DNA from: Candidatus Methylarchaceae archaeon HK02M2
Lineage (GTDB): Archaea > Thermoproteota > Nitrososphaeria > Nitrososphaerales > JACAEJ01
Direction: 5' to 3'
DNA length: 37,780 nucleotides
Assembly: GCA_024256165.1 (NCBI GenBank)
Contig: JAKLZG010000019.1
Span: forward strand, 1-37,780
The notes beneath the pieces are model-generated. The model did not search any database, was not told where the DNA came from, and worked only from the letters and a program-made list of their open reading frames with translations. Position numbers and translations under genes: made by a program. Below are positions 1 through 10,204 of this stretch, piece by piece (within the stretch, counting starts at the first letter, position 1; every line of letters begins with the position of its first letter).

Positions 1-2792
1 CCTATTTGAGCCGGAAGAAATTCTTTAGAGAAGTTTAAAAGAACATCCATCAAAAGCATTAAAGAGTCGCTATCACCATCACAATCTCTTCTTTTAGCAA
101 CATGCCAATATGGATGGGCAAAACAAACTTGTGAATTTGTGAACCCTATTACGCGCCCTATTATGCCTACAGATGTATGAGGAGCTAATCCAATGATAAG
201 GCAACCGATAAGGTCGTTTATAGAATTATTATTATAATACGGTTCACAATTGTATAAGTTTACTAACAAATCATCAATAAATCTCGATGTTCTCAATAAA
301 TACTCACCAGCATCTATAGGTAATATTACATCTTGAACAAAAAGCTCTAAAAGCTGATTGTTTAAATTAAAGGGATTGTTATTAATGTCCTTTGTATAAC
401 CTAGTTCTCTTAGTTTCTCAACAGAAGTGCCTATTTGTGATGGTTTAAAATGAGTTAATATAGCATTGGTAGCATCAAACCTTATCGTTCCATCTTTATA
501 TACAAATAAATCATATTTCTTCCGTAAGATTCCTTTTTCTAATGGTTCTGGAATACGCGCAGTACTTATAAGACCTTTAACACCTTTGAGAGGGGTTTTT
601 GGACGATACTTAACTTTCGTTATAGCGTTTTCCAATACTTGTTTGATGGGAAACTCAATCTTAGAGTAAGATAACGCTTTAATTTTACATGTTGGGCATA
701 TATCATTATTCACAATTCTTTCACAGCGTGGACATTTTTCCACAATAATAGTTTTATTAAAACATTTACTACATATTGTGTGAATAGAAGTACAACCACA
801 ACTATTGCAGACTAAATTTGCAAGTTCTATCTTGATAGTAGTATCTTTTGCTGCATGAAGTATATCCCTTTTTAAACCGCCTTTGTTTCCTACTGGAAAA
901 AGTGTGTGAACTGGGGGCTTCATTTTCCTTGGCATAGCCTTCTCAGGACGGCCTATGCGTAAACCTACAAAAATAGATGATTTTCTTTTAATGGTTATTT
1001 CCGCTATTGATGAAAGTAATTCACTAATATTTCTCCACTTTGTAACTAAATTAATTTTAGATTGTAAACCTAAAGTCTTTTTTATAGAATAAGCGAAATC
1101 GCCTTCGATAATTAACTCTTCATCAACCACCATGTGTGGAATTCCTATCTTTTCTAGGATTGTTTTAATTTCTGGCTTCTTCGGTGCAATAATAGAAAAT
1201 GGTTCTTTAATCGAGGATAAGACCAAATTTTCTCTCAATGTAATTATTTCAGAAAATGAAGCTGCATCCCAATAGAACAGATGATGAGGGTGTAAAGGAA
1301 TATCTAGCTTGTAGCTAAGTTCAAAAGCTTCGTAAGCATTTGGAAAATTGCGTATTGGATCTCTTATTATCTCTTTGAGACGTTTATTATCCATCTTAAT
1401 ATATTCCGCGCATTCGTCAATAGAGGGATATCCTTCTTTAATAATATTCATTAAATCTTGTAGCCACCATTCTTCAACATAACCAGATGGAACAAGTTTT
1501 ACATTATTTTCAAGAAAGTCCCCAAAGCTTACTAAAATGTCTCCTACATAGAGTATTTTATCAATTTTATCGTGAATTTTTATTGAATGGTTAATATTCT
1601 CAATTTTAACTACAGACTCATCTAATAATTTAACAATAGGTGGTTCTATTGTAGTAACAAAGGCTACGGTAGCAGCTTTACTTGGTATATCTAATTTGAC
1701 CTGTGTGCCAACAACAAAGGGATAGTCCAAAATTACTGCAGTAGCAGGATGAATTCCTATTGTAGATAAACCTGTATTGTAACATCGTCCATATCTTAAT
1801 CGAAAACCGCCTAATCTTCTTGGAAATGATAATACTGGACGACCCGAAATGACTTCTCCAAAATGTGTACTTGATGTATCATACTCTTCTGAACTTTGCT
1901 GTTGTCCACCTTTAAGTTCAGAGAGCCAATTCCAATCGGATATTGATAAATCATTTACTAATTTCAATAACTTTCTAGATCTACCTATTACGCCATCATT
2001 CAATACCCTTAAAGCTCCACCCCTAACACAATCTGTTAAAATTCTCTTTAAACCTCTATGAATCACAACTTCAACAGGGTTTGTTTCGACACCATCTATC
2101 TCTATAGGTAGATGTAAAAGCGCATATCTAACGTCATCATCAGTTACTCTATATTGAAAATTGCCTACTTCTCGTTCATAAATTCTGAGTTCTTCTAAAA
2201 ATCGACCAATTTCATCAGAGCCCCAAGCATTTGGTCGATATTTATCAAGACCCAAAACTTTTCGAATGTGATCTGCTATTGCAAGTGTAAAAGCTGCTTC
2301 AGTACCACCTGCTGCACGAATTGGACCAGCAAAACATATGGCAACATAACTTGTCTCGTCTTCGTTTTTTTTGATTTTTACAGATGAAATGCCTTGTATT
2401 GGAGCTACAGTAATACCGTCTGTCACCACAGCTAAACCAATGCGAACAGCTAGTTCTAATGCTTTACCTTTTTCAAAGAATTCAAATTTTCCAAGGGCAA
2501 CCTCTTCTGCAAGACGTAAAGCTACATTTTCTTTGTTATAAGTCAAGAAAAGTTCTCTTATCCTTTTTCCAAGTCCAGGTATTTTTATTAGGTTTTCAAT
2601 ACGGTCTGCTAAATCAAAAGCTAGATTAGGTTCTATATTTGGTTGGGGGTCTATGTTTTTTACACGAGCTTTTAATGAAATATTATATTGTTCATCGAAT
2701 TTCTGAAAAATGTCTCCATAGTAATTAATATATTCCTCTGGAAAAGGTGCAAATGTTTTTATTTTTTTAAGATATTCGTTAATCAAAAGCAC
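1..2792 (-). CDS. polC: DNA polymerase D large subunit DP2, 5' part (cut by left window edge)
   Basis: This is the catalytic subunit of the archaeal replicative polymerase PolD, which pairs with DP1 (encoded at 7489-8958). I translated the minus strand by hand; about 930 codons are present and the C-terminus lies outside the window. Visible signatures are the DP2 motif GPIRAAGGTEAAF near residue 160, a cysteine-rich Zn region (CNSCGC, CSKC, CPRC and CPTC) near residues 700-740, and AKRRDCDGDSDSLMLLMD near the window edge. That last segment carries the D-G-D pair of the double-psi beta-barrel active site. The start is either GTG at 2792 or TTG at 2786; neither has a clear Shine-Dalgarno. No intein was seen in the part present. 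The reading frame is intact throughout. Confidence 0.97.
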   Translation of the reverse strand, partial: MLLINEYLKKIKTFAPFPEEYINYYGDIFQKFDEQYNISLKARVKNIDPQPNIEPNLAFDLADRIENLIKIPGLGKRIRELFLTYNKENVALRLAEEVALGKFEFFEKGKALELAVRIGLAVVTDGITVAPIQGISSVKIKKNEDETSYVAICFAGPIRAAGGTEAAFTLAIADHIRKVLGLDKYRPNAWGSDEIGRFLEELRIYEREVGNFQYRVTDDDVRYALLHLPIEIDGVETNPVEVVIHRGLKRILTDCVRGGALRVLNDGVIGRSRKLLKLVNDLSISDWNWLSELKGGQQQSSEEYDTSSTHFGEVISGRPVLSFPRRLGGFRLRYGRCYNTGLSTIGIHPATAVILDYPFVVGTQVKLDIPSKAATVAFVTTIEPPIVKLLDESVVKIENINHSIKIHDKIDKILYVGDILVSFGDFLENNVKLVPSGYVEEWWLQDLMNIIKEGYPSIDECAEYIKMDNKRLKEIIRDPIRNFPNAYEAFELSYKLDIPLHPHHLFYWDAASFSEIITLRENLVLSSIKEPFSIIAPKKPEIKTILEKIGIPHMVVDEELIIEGDFAYSIKKTLGLQSKINLVTKWRNISELLSSIAEITIKRKSSIFVGLRIGRPEKAMPRKMKPPVHTLFPVGNKGGLKRDILHAAKDTTIKIELANLVCNSCGCTSIHTICSKCFNKTIIVEKCPRCERIVNNDICPTCKIKALSYSKIEFPIKQVLENAITKVKYRPKTPLKGVKGLISTARIPEPLEKGILRKKYDLFVYKDGTIRFDATNAILTHFKPSQIGTSVEKLRELGYTKDINNNPFNLNNQLLELFVQDVILPIDAGEYLLRTSRFIDDLLVNLYNCEPYYNNNSINDLIGCLIIGLAPHTSVGIIGRVIGFTNSQVCFAHPYWHVAKRRDCDGDSDSLMLLMDVLLNFSKEFLPAQI

Positions 2793-4294: not shown

Positions 4295-4714
4295 ATGATT
4301 ATAAATAATATGTTAGAATTAAAATTAAAGAATGATTCAATGGTTATGTATCTTTTAAAAAATTCAGCTTTCACCAAAGTACAATTAGATACTTATTTAA
4401 TCGATAATGTGACAGTTGGTAAACAAATAAGTTTAAATGTAAAAATAGCAATGAGGGATAAGAATAAAATAAGTAAAAGTTCATTTCTACGTACATTGAA
4501 TCAAGCTCAAAAGAATTTACAAAGATCAGTTTATTCTTTAATCTTAGCAGAATACCTAGGTTTAATTGAAGAAGGTTCAATTATTAAATTAATACAAATT
4601 GGAAATCTTTTAAAAAATGTTAATGGACAAATTTCTGATAAAAATAAATTTAAAATATATAAGATCATAGAAAGCATGGTAGAAATAATATCTAGAAAAA
4701 GAAATATAGAATAA
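4295..4714 (+). CDS. Unrecognised 139-aa, predominantly helical protein
   Basis: No family was recognised with confidence. The protein is rich in Lys, Ile and Asn. The middle (ISKSSFLRTLNQAQKNLQRS) looks like an amphipathic helix of the sort found in helix-turn-helix proteins, and the C-terminus is a long Ile/Lys helix. There is no membrane segment or cysteine cluster. ATG at 4295 is taken as the start, but ATG at 4310 in the same frame gives a more natural N-terminus (MLELKLKNDSM). It is divergent from Elf1 and sits between the PolD large subunit cluster and the origin. It may be a conserved protein of origin-proximal regions in related archaea, which I cannot verify here. Confidence 0.65.
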   Translation: MIINNMLELKLKNDSMVMYLLKNSAFTKVQLDTYLIDNVTVGKQISLNVKIAMRDKNKISKSSFLRTLNQAQKNLQRSVYSLILAEYLGLIEEGSIIKLIQIGNLLKNVNGQISDKNKFKIYKIIESMVEIISRKRNIE

Positions 4715-4806: not shown

Positions 4807-5358
4807 ATGCTCATAGAAAATATTGTGATAATCTCATTAACTACTATTACATCATTAGCTTTAATTATAATGATAATTATTTATCTACCAAAAATCAAAA
4901 AAGCAATTAAACAACAAAAAGATGCTAATGAAATAATAAAAGATATAATTACAGATCTTCATAGTAGACTTACCCAACAAGATAATAAAATATTAGATCA
5001 ACAAGTGAGATTAGATATTTTAGAACTTAAAATAAATCAAAGTAAAGTACCAACGATTCAAAAGACCTATAATTCTGATAATGAAATTAAAAGGTCTATA
5101 ATTCTAAATGAGAATAAAATCTCGGTTGAAAAAGAAATTGGAGGATATTTAAATCCCACTGATATTCGTATACTTGAATTGTTAATGAAAGAAGATCAAA
5201 CTTCGATACAAATACAACAAAAAATAAAGAAATCCAGAGAACATATAGCTAGGTTGTTGAAAAAATTATTTGAATTAAATTATATTACTAGAAATGAAAA
5301 AAAGAAACCGTATCTTTATACTATAACTAATAAAGGAATTCATATATTAGAAAAATAA
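4807..5358 (+). CDS. Membrane-anchored protein with coiled coil and C-terminal winged helix
   Basis: The 183-aa protein has one N-terminal transmembrane segment (about residues 5-27, Ile/Leu/Thr-rich). A charged linker and probable coiled coil follow (about 30-80, with LHSRLTQQDNK and LDILELKINQ heptads). A winged helix closes the protein (about 117-183, LNPTDIRILELLMKEDQTS, then a recognition helix SREHIARLLKKL and a wing ending in ITNKGIHIL). That last part resembles MarR/ArsR-like domains. A DNA-binding domain held at the membrane next to an origin could tether DNA or act as a regulator. The specific function is unknown. Two palindromes directly precede the ATG. Confidence 0.8.
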   Translation: MLIENIVIISLTTITSLALIIMIIIYLPKIKKAIKQQKDANEIIKDIITDLHSRLTQQDNKILDQQVRLDILELKINQSKVPTIQKTYNSDNEIKRSIILNENKISVEKEIGGYLNPTDIRILELLMKEDQTSIQIQQKIKKSREHIARLLKKLFELNYITRNEKKKPYLYTITNKGIHILEK

Positions 5359-5460
5359 TATTTGTGAAGTATATGTGAAAAATAATAATATTTGTTTATT
5401 TTATTATAATTGTCATTATTTGAGGATAATTTAGTTTTATTTTAATGTTAACTTAAAGTG

Positions 5461-5486
5461 CAGACACCCCTTTATTTCCAATGGAG
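5461..5486 (-). promoter_or_regulatory. Origin recognition box-like element (ORB-1)
   Basis: Read on the minus strand, this gives TCCATTGGAAATAAAGGGGT followed by GTCTG. It matches the archaeal ORB layout of a TGGAAA core followed by a G-string. It shares CATTGGAAAT, a three-base spacer and AGGGGTG with ORB-2 at 6247. It lies in the 287-nt gap before the 5646 gene. Apart from this box I see nothing gene-like in that gap; a partial TTTCCAAT at about 5514 is too weak to count. Confidence 0.6.
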
Positions 5487-5645
5487 TATAATTAAGGTTA
5501 ATTCAAATAAGATGTTTCCAATCCATTGTGAATGCTTGTTAAATTATGAATATATCTCATTATTATGTCATAAGTATTTCACTACAAGTTCACTTCTTCA
5601 CACATATTTCTTTATTATTCAAAGAATATTATGATTAGGTAAATA

Positions 5646-6038
5646 ATGAACAGAAAAAAGATAAAAATTGAGTTTGATGATGCAGAAGGTGGAAAATATA
5701 AAATATTCATAGAAGGAAAACTATCTCAAGATAAAATATTAAAAATATTAAATATAGTTGATTTTATTGGAGAAAAAGATTTAGTTGATCAAAAATTTAT
5801 TTTTTCTCTTAATACACAATTTGGACGTCTTTATAATCTTATTGAAAAAAAGTTTTCTTTTGGATCTTTTACATCTTCGGATATTTTAGAAGCTTATGAA
5901 GATGAATATAATACTCCTATAAAATTAAGTACAATATCAACATATTTACAAAGATTTATGGATAAAGGTGTATTAATTCGAAATAAAATTAATATGGGTT
6001 GGGCCTACCGTAAAGTCAAATCCAATTTGTCTTGTTAA
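5646..6038 (+). CDS. Unrecognised 130-aa protein with C-terminal winged-helix region, located inside the origin
   Basis: The first about 70 residues look like a small alpha/beta domain (KIKIEFDDAEGGKYKIFIEG). The last 55 (FTSSDILEAYEDEYNTPIKL, then STISTYLQRFMDKGVLIRN) look like a winged helix with a recognition helix and an aromatic wing. No catalytic motif is visible and no family was recognised. It is flanked by ORB-like boxes on both sides (5461 and 6059) and followed by orc1/cdc6. A role in origin binding or in control of orc1/cdc6 is possible but is inference from position. Confidence 0.7.
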   Translation: MNRKKIKIEFDDAEGGKYKIFIEGKLSQDKILKILNIVDFIGEKDLVDQKFIFSLNTQFGRLYNLIEKKFSFGSFTSSDILEAYEDEYNTPIKLSTISTYLQRFMDKGVLIRNKINMGWAYRKVKSNLSC

Positions 6039-6058
6039 GACAATCCACAATAATCATA

Positions 6059-6085
6059 CCCACCCACCCCTTTTTTTCAAATGGA
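6059..6085 (-). promoter_or_regulatory. Origin recognition box-like element (ORB-3), left flank of AT-rich stretch
   Basis: On the minus strand this reads TCCATTTGAAAAAAAGGGG followed by TGGGTGGG. It is the inverted partner of ORB-2 at 6247-6271, identical over AAGGGGTGGGTGGG. The G-string points away from the AT-rich centre, while the TGGAAA-like end faces it. Confidence 0.7.
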
Positions 6086-6246
6086 ATTAAGTAAAACTTA
6101 TATTAAAAATTCAAATTGGAAGTAAGTTAAATTTCACTTCTTAATAAAGTAATTTTAATTTATTTGAATTTAATATTTTTTGATAAACCTAGAACGGTCT
6201 AATAATAATATATATAATAACAATTTTATCTTTAAGAATCGGTCTA

Positions 6247-6271
6247 CATTGGAAATTAAGGGGTGGGTGGG
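6247..6271 (+). promoter_or_regulatory. Origin recognition box-like element (ORB-2), right flank
   Basis: The plus strand reads CATTGGAAATTAAGGGGTGG followed by GTGGG. This contains the ORB core (TGGAAA) and the long G-string to which the Orc1/Cdc6 winged helix and AAA+ domain bind in characterised archaea. It begins 51 nt before the orc1/cdc6 ATG, so Orc1/Cdc6 binding here could also repress its own gene. Confidence 0.75.
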
Positions 6272-6297
6272 ATTATTTTTCTGGAGATTAATGAACA

Positions 6298-7494
6298 ATG
6301 AAGAAATCTGAAGATCTTTTAGATGAAATATTTACTAAAGCTTTGTCTGGTCAATCTTTATTTAAAGATCGCAATGTTTTAAAATCAGATTATATTCCAT
6401 CAAAATTACCTTTTCGTGAAAAGCAAATCGTTTCTATAGGTGAGGTTTTAGCACCTCTTTTACATAAATCAAAATGTTCAAATTTATTTATATATGGTAA
6501 ACCAGGAACAGGTAAAACAGCTGTCACTAAATATGTGTTACAAAAACTTCAGGAAAAATCCTTATCTCCAAATCTAAATATTAAATTCGCTTATTCAAAT
6601 ATGAGAGTAGCAGGTACTGAATATAGGGTTCTTTTTGATATAGCAAATTCTATAGGATTATCAGTTCCTTTTACTGGATTATCTATTAATGAAGTCTTTA
6701 GACGAATTAGTACAACAATAGAATCATTTACATTAACAGTGATAATAATAATGGATGAGATTGACTTTTTAGTTAAAAATTATGGTGATGATTTACTTTA
6801 TGAACTTACTCGTGCAAACGAACAACTACCAAAAGGTTATCTAGCTTTAATAGGAATATCTAATGATTTAAACTTTAAAGAATTTCTTAATCCAAGAGTA
6901 TTAAGTAGTTTAAGTGAAGAAGAGATAATATTTTCACCATATTCAACTGAGGAATTAAGAGCTATACTTTCTGATAGAGCCAAGTTAGCTTTCTTAGATA
7001 ATATAATGACAGATGTGGCTATAAACTTGTGTGCTGCCTTAGCAGGCTCTGAACATGGCGATGCTAGACGAGCTTTAGATTTATTAAGAGTATCTGGTGA
7101 AGTAGCTGAACGTGAAAATGCAAATAATGTTGAAGAGAAACATGTTAGAATGGCCATACAGAAAATAGAGCAAGACCGTTTGGTCGAAGTTCTTAAATCT
7201 TTACCTCTACATGCCAAACTTTTATTATGGATTATCACATCATCTAGTGGAGTAAATTCTACTGGTGAAGTTTACGAATACTATTCTAAATTATGCCAGA
7301 AACTTAATATTGAGAAATTAACATCAAGACGTGTAGGTATGCTTATAAGTGAACTTGATCTTTTAGGTCTAATAGTTGCTAAAGTAGTTAGTAAGGGTCG
7401 TTATGGTAGAACGAAGCAAATTCATTCTTTAATCCAATTACAAATTATAAGAGAAATATTTTTAGAAGACCCTTTAATGAATTCAATCTTATAA
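6298..7494 (+). CDS. cdc6: Orc1/Cdc6-type replication initiator
   Basis: This AAA+ ATPase binds origin boxes and helps load the MCM helicase. Walker A is GKPGTGKT (residues 67-74) and Walker B is IIIMDEID (149-156). Sensor 1 is near LIGISNDLNF, sensor 2 is in HGDARRALDLL, and a C-terminal winged helix spans roughly residues 300-390 (SRRVGMLISELDLLGLI). The 398-aa length is typical. The ATG start is preceded by a purine-rich TGGAGATT. Its 3' end overlaps the convergent DP1 gene by about 6 nt. This is the only orc1/cdc6 in the window and it lies beside the ORB-like repeats. Confidence 0.96.
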   Translation: MKKSEDLLDEIFTKALSGQSLFKDRNVLKSDYIPSKLPFREKQIVSIGEVLAPLLHKSKCSNLFIYGKPGTGKTAVTKYVLQKLQEKSLSPNLNIKFAYSNMRVAGTEYRVLFDIANSIGLSVPFTGLSINEVFRRISTTIESFTLTVIIIMDEIDFLVKNYGDDLLYELTRANEQLPKGYLALIGISNDLNFKEFLNPRVLSSLSEEEIIFSPYSTEELRAILSDRAKLAFLDNIMTDVAINLCAALAGSEHGDARRALDLLRVSGEVAERENANNVEEKHVRMAIQKIEQDRLVEVLKSLPLHAKLLLWIITSSSGVNSTGEVYEYYSKLCQKLNIEKLTSRRVGMLISELDLLGLIVAKVVSKGRYGRTKQIHSLIQLQIIREIFLEDPLMNSIL

Positions 7495-8958
7495 ATCAAT
7501 AAAATTTTTTAATTTAACTTCTAAGGTCTTTAAATTTACAATAGGGACTATACCTGGTGTAGGTGTAAGACCCATATTTAATTGATAAGATGTTTGCCCT
7601 TGCCATGTTCCTGAATTAATTAATAATGTGCCACGATAATTATCAATATCTACGGTATGGACATGTCCTAAATGTAAAATATCTGGTACTTGTTCTATTA
7701 CCAAATGATCTTCTTGTTCTTGTGCTATTGGAGTCCTTTCACCATATATTGGAGCTAAATGTCTTGCTTTGAGTAAAATTTTCATAGCTGATGCAGGATT
7801 TGAAAATGTAAGTCCAGGTATTTTGGCATGTATATCGTCTAAACTTCTACCGTGACAAACAAGTATATTTATTCCATGTAAACATAAATAAACCGGATTT
7901 CCTAACATGCTTACATTTTCCATATTATATAGATCAATAACATATTTATCAGGGATAGCAGGTTGTGGTAAAGCTTGTCTAACTGGGTCATGATTCCCTG
8001 GTATTATGAATATTTTAATATGTTTTGGAATTTGTTTAATAAATTCAATAAACTTCTTATATTGTTCATAAATATTAACTTCTGAAAGTTCCTTATCTTG
8101 ATTTGGATATATACCGATACCATCAACAATATCACCTGCAATTATTAAATATCTTACTTTGTTAACAATAGCATTATCACCATTTTTACCATTTAGCCAT
8201 AGAATGAATTTATTGAAAGCATCAAAAAGAAAAGTATTACTCCCTACATGAGTATCTGATGTAAATATTGCATATACTTCATTTTCTGACCTATTAGGTA
8301 AGTGTTCTGGTATATCGGGAGAATATATATCTCTTATAATCGCTAATCCTTTTTTACTAAACTTCAAATCAACTATAACCAACTGATCGAGACAGATTTC
8401 AATCGCATTTTTTTTGGAATTTCTATCTAAAGCTATAATTTTTATTTTACCACTCATATCATCTAGTGTAAGAACAACATATGACCGTTTAATTTTTTTA
8501 TCCATAACAAGCCCTGCAATTTTTTGAAATTTTTTATAATCATCCTTTTTTAAATTAGATATCTGTTTAATTTGATACGAATCAGGTCTCTCCTTAACTA
8601 TCTTCAGTAATTTTTCAAATCGACTTCTGAAAAGGTTTTTAAAACCTCTTATTCCTGTAATAGGAAAAATATTATTTGTTGGATCTTTTATAATTTTATA
8701 TTCAAATTTAATCGGTTTTGGTAATATTTTTTGTGCTTGTAACTGGGTTGATCCGACATCTTTTAAATTAGAAGGAAATGCTCTAATAAGATCCTGTTTA
8801 GTGATTATATTCTGTTTATTGTTTTGATTTAATTTTATAAGTAATTCTTTAATACTAATTTTTTCATCATACTTTGAAAGAAAGTTAAAAGCTTCAGGAT
8901 CTAACTGATATCCATTAGCAAGTGCTTCAATAATTAATTTAACTTTCTTTTGATGCAA
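7489..8958 (-). CDS. polB: DNA polymerase D small subunit DP1 (3'-5' proofreading exonuclease)
   Basis: This is the partner of DP2. The 489-aa protein has an N-terminal region of about 100 residues, an OB-fold (around 110-220, VVLTLDDMSGKIKIIALDRN) and a calcineurin-like phosphoesterase domain. All metal-site motifs are visible: FTSDTHVGS, IIAGDIVDGIG, IIPGNHDPVR, LVCHGRSLDD and HLGHVHTVD, so proofreading activity should be intact. The ATG start at 8958 begins MHQKKVKLII. The gene converges on orc1/cdc6 with a few bases of overlap. LSm is just upstream on the same strand (about 47 nt). Confidence 0.97.
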   Translation of the reverse strand: MHQKKVKLIIEALANGYQLDPEAFNFLSKYDEKISIKELLIKLNQNNKQNIITKQDLIRAFPSNLKDVGSTQLQAQKILPKPIKFEYKIIKDPTNNIFPITGIRGFKNLFRSRFEKLLKIVKERPDSYQIKQISNLKKDDYKKFQKIAGLVMDKKIKRSYVVLTLDDMSGKIKIIALDRNSKKNAIEICLDQLVIVDLKFSKKGLAIIRDIYSPDIPEHLPNRSENEVYAIFTSDTHVGSNTFLFDAFNKFILWLNGKNGDNAIVNKVRYLIIAGDIVDGIGIYPNQDKELSEVNIYEQYKKFIEFIKQIPKHIKIFIIPGNHDPVRQALPQPAIPDKYVIDLYNMENVSMLGNPVYLCLHGINILVCHGRSLDDIHAKIPGLTFSNPASAMKILLKARHLAPIYGERTPIAQEQEDHLVIEQVPDILHLGHVHTVDIDNYRGTLLINSGTWQGQTSYQLNMGLTPTPGIVPIVNLKTLEVKLKNFIDL

Positions 8959-9904: not shown

Positions 9905-10204
9905 TTGGCTCGAAACATAACAGAAACAGACGATGGAAAGGAACATGAAGATCTAGTATATTTAAAAGCCTTTTCATTAAAATCATTCGATGAATTATCA
10001 AAAATAAAGAATGATGTAAATAAAAAAATGATAATTATATTAAAGATTACTCCTCTTGCACAAAAGGATGTGGAAGAGCTTAAGCGAGCCGTCGAGGAAC
10101 TATATGAATTTTCAGTATCAATTGGAGGAGATATTGCAAGATTGGGTGAAGAGAGGATTGTAATTACTCCTCCTAATGTAAAAATTTGGAGAGGTTCGAT
10201 CTAA
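9905..10204 (+). CDS. sepF: SepF-family cell division protein
   Basis: SepF anchors FtsZ to the membrane in archaea that divide with FtsZ. This 99-aa protein has the family core VYLKAFSLKSFDELSKIK, a strand IIILKITPL, then KDVEELKRAVEELYEF and the C-terminal SIGGDIARLGEERIVITPP. The first 15 residues are the expected flexible N-terminal segment, but the amphipathic membrane-targeting helix is not obvious here. The start is TTG at 9905, preceded by an AT-rich TTATATATAA element (about 9881-9890) that could be the TATA box. FtsZ is not in the window. Confidence 0.9.
   Translation: MARNITETDDGKEHEDLVYLKAFSLKSFDELSKIKNDVNKKMIIILKITPLAQKDVEELKRAVEELYEFSVSIGGDIARLGEERIVITPPNVKIWRGSI

Follow-up and report, generated by a model that had tools for sequence, protein, structure and literature searches.

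The window, i.e., the whole stretch of 37,780 nt that we analyzed, is contig C19 in its full length and belongs to a genome of 1.34 Mb in 91 contigs that is 96% complete. The MAG H03B2 and Ca. Methylarchaceae archaeon HK01M are members of the same genus within Ca. Methylarchaeales, class Nitrososphaeria (PMC9478090). Below, f1 denotes the family of the window genome, and other f-numbers denote the families of its relatives. Genes for both subunits of DNA polymerase D flank the putative origin region, in which we delineated the following features (basis of each assignment in brackets).

3-2792, minus strand: large subunit of DNA polymerase D (DP2), truncated by the contig end (TIGR00354 above cut-off)
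4295-4714, plus strand: orfA, conserved hypothetical neighbor (locus comparison)
4807-5358, plus strand: orfB, conserved neighbor encoding a winged helix, PF13463, preceded by a hydrophobic N-terminal segment (profile and locus comparison)
5446-5452, unstranded: TGTTAAC, a site of the GTTMAC repeat type that is overrepresented in these origins (sequence and enrichment)
5463-5485, minus strand: ORB1, distal box TCCATTGGAAATAAAGGGGTGTC, without a long G-tail (consensus fit and family conservation)
5512-5526, minus strand: degenerate or mini-ORB without a G-string, about 40 bp from ORB1 (sequence; region conserved in f1)
5526-5542, plus strand: TTGTGAATGCTTGTTAA, degenerate GTTMAC-type pair conserved in f1 (sequence and alignment)
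5588-5602, plus strand: candidate orfC operator GTTCACTTCTTCACA (pattern GTTCACNNNTTCACA), located 58 bp upstream of the first codon of orfC (fixed position in families)
5646-6038, plus strand: orfC, encoding a basic 130-aa protein (pI 9.2) with a C-terminal winged helix, in the flipped segment (profile, model, and locus comparison)
6059-6085, minus strand: ORB2, inner box in inverted orientation, with the extended G-tail GGGGTGGGTGGG (consensus fit and conservation)
6086-6244, unstranded: AT-rich spacer between ORB2 and ORB3, a putative duplex unwinding element or DUE (159 bp, 83% AT)
6189-6200, plus strand: DUE-embedded motif CTAGAACGGTCT (pattern CWAGWRCGGKCT), 56 bp before ORB3 (position-fixed in several families)
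6237-6246, plus strand: second copy of this motif, AATCGGTCTA, abutting ORB3 (alignment of seven family members)
6245-6271, plus strand: ORB3, orc1-proximal ORB with extended G-tail (consensus fit and conservation)
6298-7494, plus strand: orc1/cdc6, the cognate initiator, 398 aa (TIGR02928, Cdc6_lid, Cdc6_C)
7489-8958, minus strand: small subunit of DNA polymerase D (DP1), its gene convergent with orc1 (NF003118 above cut-off)

The orfA product is small and basic, and the position of its gene is kept across many families; orfB stays adjacent to orfC in most of the order. A SepF-like cell division gene (9905-10204) also lies near the origin, and this proximity is retained in f1 relatives.

The orc1/cdc6 product scores 393 bits against TIGR02928 (cut-off 181) and 72 bits against Cdc6_C, and its ORF begins 27 bp past the end of ORB3, which provides the adjacent initiator gene typical of ORB-type origins. 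The same genome encodes a second, distant Orc1/Cdc6 paralogue of 388 aa (locus L002 on contig C26, 593-1759, minus strand), for which several relatives have no match. No main-type ORB was found near this second gene, where the best site (16/20) lies within the adjacent ORF. The presence of a second distant cdc6 leaves room for further, non-ORB origins in the genome.

The first-pass annotation of this DNA had proposed a replication origin with at least three ORB-like boxes upstream of orc1/cdc6, and all three were recovered, at 5463-5485 (minus), 6059-6085 (minus), and 6245-6271 (plus). When scored against the published 'Common' archaeal ORB consensus, TCCA[CG]T[TG]GAAA[TC][GA]AAGGGGT (PMC4164010), over 20 positions with the fifth position free, ORB1 fits at 20/20, ORB2 at 19/20, and ORB3 at 18/20 positions, and nowhere in the rest of the window is a fit of at least 16/20 reached. 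A 19-mer search of the 1.34 Mb genome with up to three mismatches returned exactly three matches, all of them the origin boxes, vs none for the reversed control pattern; under a base-composition model, about 0.0002 sites are expected by chance in the 837-bp interval and 0.3 in the entire genome. The locus thus contains several consensus-matching ORBs with the G-string, as is characteristic of archaeal ORB-type origins, and the identification of the boxes as ORBs is upheld by their consensus match, their uniqueness in the genome, and their conservation upstream of orc1 in relatives. The formula by which they had been described was right about the AGGGGTG tail and wrong about a three-nucleotide spacer: the actual sequence is CATTGGAAAT-N2-AGGGGTG, with the middle box deviating at two positions.

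The two inner boxes had been described as inverted around about 160 nt of AT-rich DNA and as sharing AAGGGGTGGGTGGG, and this description holds. ORB2 and ORB3 form a 25-nt inverted repeat that is 88% complementary, with 163 nt separating the arms, so that an inverted ORB pair encloses an AT-rich element as in other ORB-type origins. In a stability scan of the window, the least stable 100-mers were found elsewhere, and the ORB2-ORB3 spacer ranked approximately fifth. A TATA-like sequence of the presumed orc1 promoter lies inside this spacer.

The layout of the locus is shared with many relatives. Within f1, the inner boxes together with the CGGTCT elements of the spacer align position by position in seven genomes, and ORB1 is aligned in all five genomes with sufficient contig reach (the window and four others). 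The order-wide pattern consists of two direct ORBs about 61 bp apart, an inverted ORB, an AT-rich stretch, and an orc1-adjacent ORB; in wider-phylum relatives the order of ORB orientations is mostly plus, minus, plus. Altogether, the ORB pattern has 51 matches in 45 relatives, compared with seven for the reversed control, and 47 of the 51 fall within about 2.5 kb of orc1 (with G057 taken across its circular start). The remaining four matches are G002:C71, G003:C15, G039:C6, and G057:652180; that at G003:C15 may be the distal ORB of the G003 origin severed by a contig break, since the orc1 contig of G003 starts 251 bp upstream of orc1. In 24 of 25 loci, 138-184 bp separate the start of ORB2 from that of ORB3, and the distal ORB pair is mostly spaced by 59-68 bp. 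In f2 origins there is a third ORB at 40-41 bp from the distal pair, the same spacing as that of the mini-ORB to ORB1. G-rich tails are a property of the DUE-flanking ORBs, with a mean of 3.8 G among 9 nt, and not of the distal ones, with a mean of 1.8 (p 2e-12). The first-pass annotation had named the scattering of equal numbers of boxes over the genome as evidence against an origin. Genome-wide they occur at this locus only, and because they are also conserved in sequence, orientation, and spacing among relatives, this objection falls.

The distal part of the locus is more mobile. In most relatives orfC is divergent from orc1, with the distal ORBs between both genes. In f1, orfC is oriented toward orc1, and beyond it, on the far side, the distal ORB is found in reversed orientation. 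As judged from the sequence, this is the arrangement expected from inversion of a segment consisting of orfC and the distal ORB; the arm was inverted in f1 along with the neighboring gene, so that orfC is now found between ORB1 and ORB2. The first-pass annotation mentioned neither the winged-helix gene at this place nor the inversion. The flipped state recurs in f28 (L176) and in f21 (L163-L165, L175j), a family that is related at the level of the class but does not belong to the order. The core ORB2-DUE-ORB3-orc1, about 250 bp in length, is intact in f1, f21, and f28. On an Orc1 tree obtained by a quick method, the co-directional state of orfC requires four changes, three of which are forced by well-supported branches; a single ancestral inversion is accordingly not favored. 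Other rearrangements also occur. In L071 (G047, f11), orfC became co-directional in a different way, with the ORBs, orfC, and the GGGP synthase gene relocated to a distance of about 2 kb from orc1 and changed in orientation, and in L183 (G218, f53) the distal ORB was apparently inverted alone, with orfC still divergent.

The orfC gene itself is conserved. The gene occurs in cultured ammonia oxidizers. One full-length copy is present in each of the 75 good-quality genomes of the class that were sampled, and by coordinates it lies less than 2 kb from orc1 in all 23 class-level genomes with a full-length orc1; the distance is about 3 kb in f2. In the wider phylum, orfC is beside orc1 in 21 of 47 genomes. 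A structural model (AlphaFold2, medium confidence with pLDDT 72.5, and about 84-90 in the winged helix) predicts a beta-beta-alpha part followed by the winged helix, and a structure search with this model returned only generic winged-helix matches, none with an E-value below 0.001. The nearest profiles are those of the BlaI/MecI/CopY repressors. The window copy stays below the gathering cut-off of PF03965 (Penicillinase_R; 20.0 vs 22.6 bits) and has no NCBIfam match, and 18 of 22 OrfC homologues match PF03965 at E-values up to 0.01, the best being 1.1e-7. No published work on orfC was found in a literature search, the coverage of which left out most subscription journals.

Upstream of orfC, the pattern GTTCACNNNTTCACA occurs 55-64 bp before the start codon in f1, f6, f11, f13, and f14, and variants with one mismatch (14/15) are found at orfC in f4 and f7. 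In 18 whole genomes, the exact pattern has 14 matches, of which 13 are at orfC; as the operator is nearly missing elsewhere, no regulon is visible. The sole match away from orfC (130-144, minus strand) is inside the DP2 gene of the window and looks like a chance occurrence. Counted on both strands, the related GTTMAC hexamer reaches 10.2 per kb in the intergenic DNA between orfC and orc1 and 0.46 per kb in the remainder of these loci, a 22-fold difference in density. For loci L053-L081, 151 GTTAAC/GTTCAC sites were counted in these intergenic regions, as compared with 19 expected in shuffles; the sites are often 8-12 bp apart and constitute a second repeat class of these origins. Phased triple TTMAC repeats were rejected as an origin-specific signature, with scattered matches and equal numbers in controls.

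What OrfC does at this position allows for two readings. We suggest that GTTCACNNNTTCACA and the related GTTMAC sites may be bound by OrfC, which would be a DNA-binding regulator dedicated to the origin, controlling its own promoter via GTTCACNNNTTCACA and acting at the origin; judging by linkage, a dedicated origin factor has close to an even chance. The alternative, for which the chances are also a little short of even, is that orfC encodes an unrelated transcription factor, perhaps an ordinary autoregulated one, that neighbors the origin by chance and plays no part in replication. Such a factor would agree with the repressor profiles, with the promoter position of the operator, and with the 24 of 47 wider-phylum genomes in which orfC is away from orc1, but it agrees less well with a single-copy gene that occurs in every good genome of the class and is kept beside orc1 despite repeated inversions, with an operator almost absent away from orfC, or with the enrichment of half-site-like GTTMAC in origin intergenic regions. 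In its full form, our proposal for a dedicated factor is tentative and should be read as somewhat doubtful: OrfC would be an ancestral origin-dedicated winged-helix protein of Thermoproteota outside Sulfolobales/Desulfurococcales, its sites would be the GTTCAC/GTTAAC sequences of oriC and of the orfC promoter, it would govern the action of Orc1 or MCM there as an unrelated counterpart of Sulfolobus UBP, and the distal ORB arm with orfC would be a module tolerated in either orientation.

A similar choice arises for the motif inside the spacer. The GGTCTA repeats reported by the first-pass annotation are present at 6189-6201 and 6237-6246, and its suggestion that GAACGGTCTA represents an additional factor site gains support from conservation at a fixed distance from ORB3. 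Matches to the DUE motif are located 52-61 bp from ORB3 in f1, f4, f11, f12, f13, and f16, those in f11 being weak by their own shuffle nulls; CWAGWRCGGKCT was not found in f2, f8, f10, or the class-level relatives tested. As a genome-unique motif CWAGWRCGGKCT was rejected, its background being equal to the control, and since the sequence is not rare, the evidence is that of its fixed position. OrfC is unlikely to be the sole cognate factor of CGGTCT, because families lacking the motif still have OrfC. The element CTAGAACGGTCT would act either as a DUE-embedded factor site or as an operator of the orc1 promoter. The latter reading, by which the CGGTCT elements serve orc1 as operators or as parts of its core promoter and are not origin factor sites, is given a probability just under one half: the elements bracket the TATA-like stretch upstream of orc1, and the sequence by itself is not origin-unique, whereas the distance that is fixed is that to ORB3 (with a variable distance to the start codon), and the second copy directly abuts ORB3.

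With its layout conserved across the order and beyond, the locus is very likely an ORB-type oriC, and we consider it highly probable that chromosome replication in this member of Ca. Methylarchaeales starts here, at an origin of the Sulfolobus oriC1 kind. The product of the adjacent gene, Orc1/Cdc6, would bind ORB2 and ORB3, which face each other with 159 bp of AT-rich DNA between them; in its ATP-bound form Orc1 would recruit MCM there, and the AT-rich DNA would melt. The distal ORB1 and the mini-ORB would form an accessory Orc1-binding arm. GC skew, whose switch near 6 kb the first-pass annotation had named as the other test, decides neither way: within the window it is noisy and tracks gene strand, with no clean switch near 6 kb, and in the complete genome of relative G007 (40 blocks of 20 kb) the cumulative skew is noisy and compatible with an origin at orc1 without supporting one. 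That the boxes serve solely as operators through which Orc1 regulates its own promoter, with replication starting elsewhere or via recombination, is very improbable: ORB3 and the CGGTCT pair do lie in the presumed orc1 promoter or 5' leader, and recombination-driven, origin-free replication is reported for some archaea (PMC11005403), but ORB1 is conserved though it lies about 830 bp upstream, the ORB2-DUE-ORB3 geometry and the distal ORB spacing are kept over many families, the genome has no other ORB cluster, N. maritimus has a single mapped origin, and the Nitrosocaldus origin was annotated by analogy at ORB-cdc.

The analysis provides a well-supported oriC for Ca. Methylarchaeales, which are putative methanogens within Nitrososphaeria, and distinguishes a core that stays constant (ORB2-DUE-ORB3-orc1) from an arm that is movable and was flipped about four times in evolution, a distinction that predicts which part of the origin is essential. 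This type of origin is already known; the gene-linked flipped module, the phylum-wide origin-linked winged-helix gene with a private operator, and the DUE motif appear to be new, as no earlier description was found in the literature covered. The question left by Dhanaraju et al. 2025 (PMC12141716), whether other origin proteins exist outside Sulfolobales/Desulfurococcales, thereby receives concrete candidates in orfC and its operator, which are testable in the cultured ammonia oxidizers.

In comparison with known systems, the box sequence resembles the ORB motif with the GGGGT string in its 'Common' and Methanomicrobia forms (Ori-Finder 2 / DoriC, PMC4164010), from which the proximal boxes differ by the longer G-tail GGGGTGGGTGGG. 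OrfC resembles the BlaI/MecI/CopY repressors (PF03965, TIGR02698) in its C-terminal winged-helix region by profile and fold, and differs from them by the additional N-terminal beta-beta-alpha part and by its location at oriC. The origins of Nitrosopumilus and Nitrosocaldus, from the same class, likewise have ORB repeats beside cdc6 and contain orfC. There, however, orfC is divergent from orc1 with the distal ORBs between them; in the f2 group, roughly 3 kb separate orc1 from the orfC gene upstream of it, and f2, f8, and f10 have no CWAGWRCGGKCT. The closest parallel is Sulfolobus oriC1 with its Orc1-1 and ucm/UBP, in which ORB2, ORB3, and a motif inside the DUE are individually necessary in vivo (PMC12141716). 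Both origins have three ORBs, the inner two inverted around an AT-rich DUE beside orc1, and a short conserved motif within the DUE. This motif is CWAGWRCGGKCT here and ucm ATTATACAAAC in Sulfolobus; ucm was not found in the ORB2-ORB3 DUE, where the best match has 3 mismatches of 11 and lies in an AT-rich stretch. OrfC is predicted to be a winged-helix protein, whereas UBP is by published description a beta-rich, saddle-shaped dimer. Unlike in Sulfolobus oriC1, the distal ORB is here flipped together with a gene.
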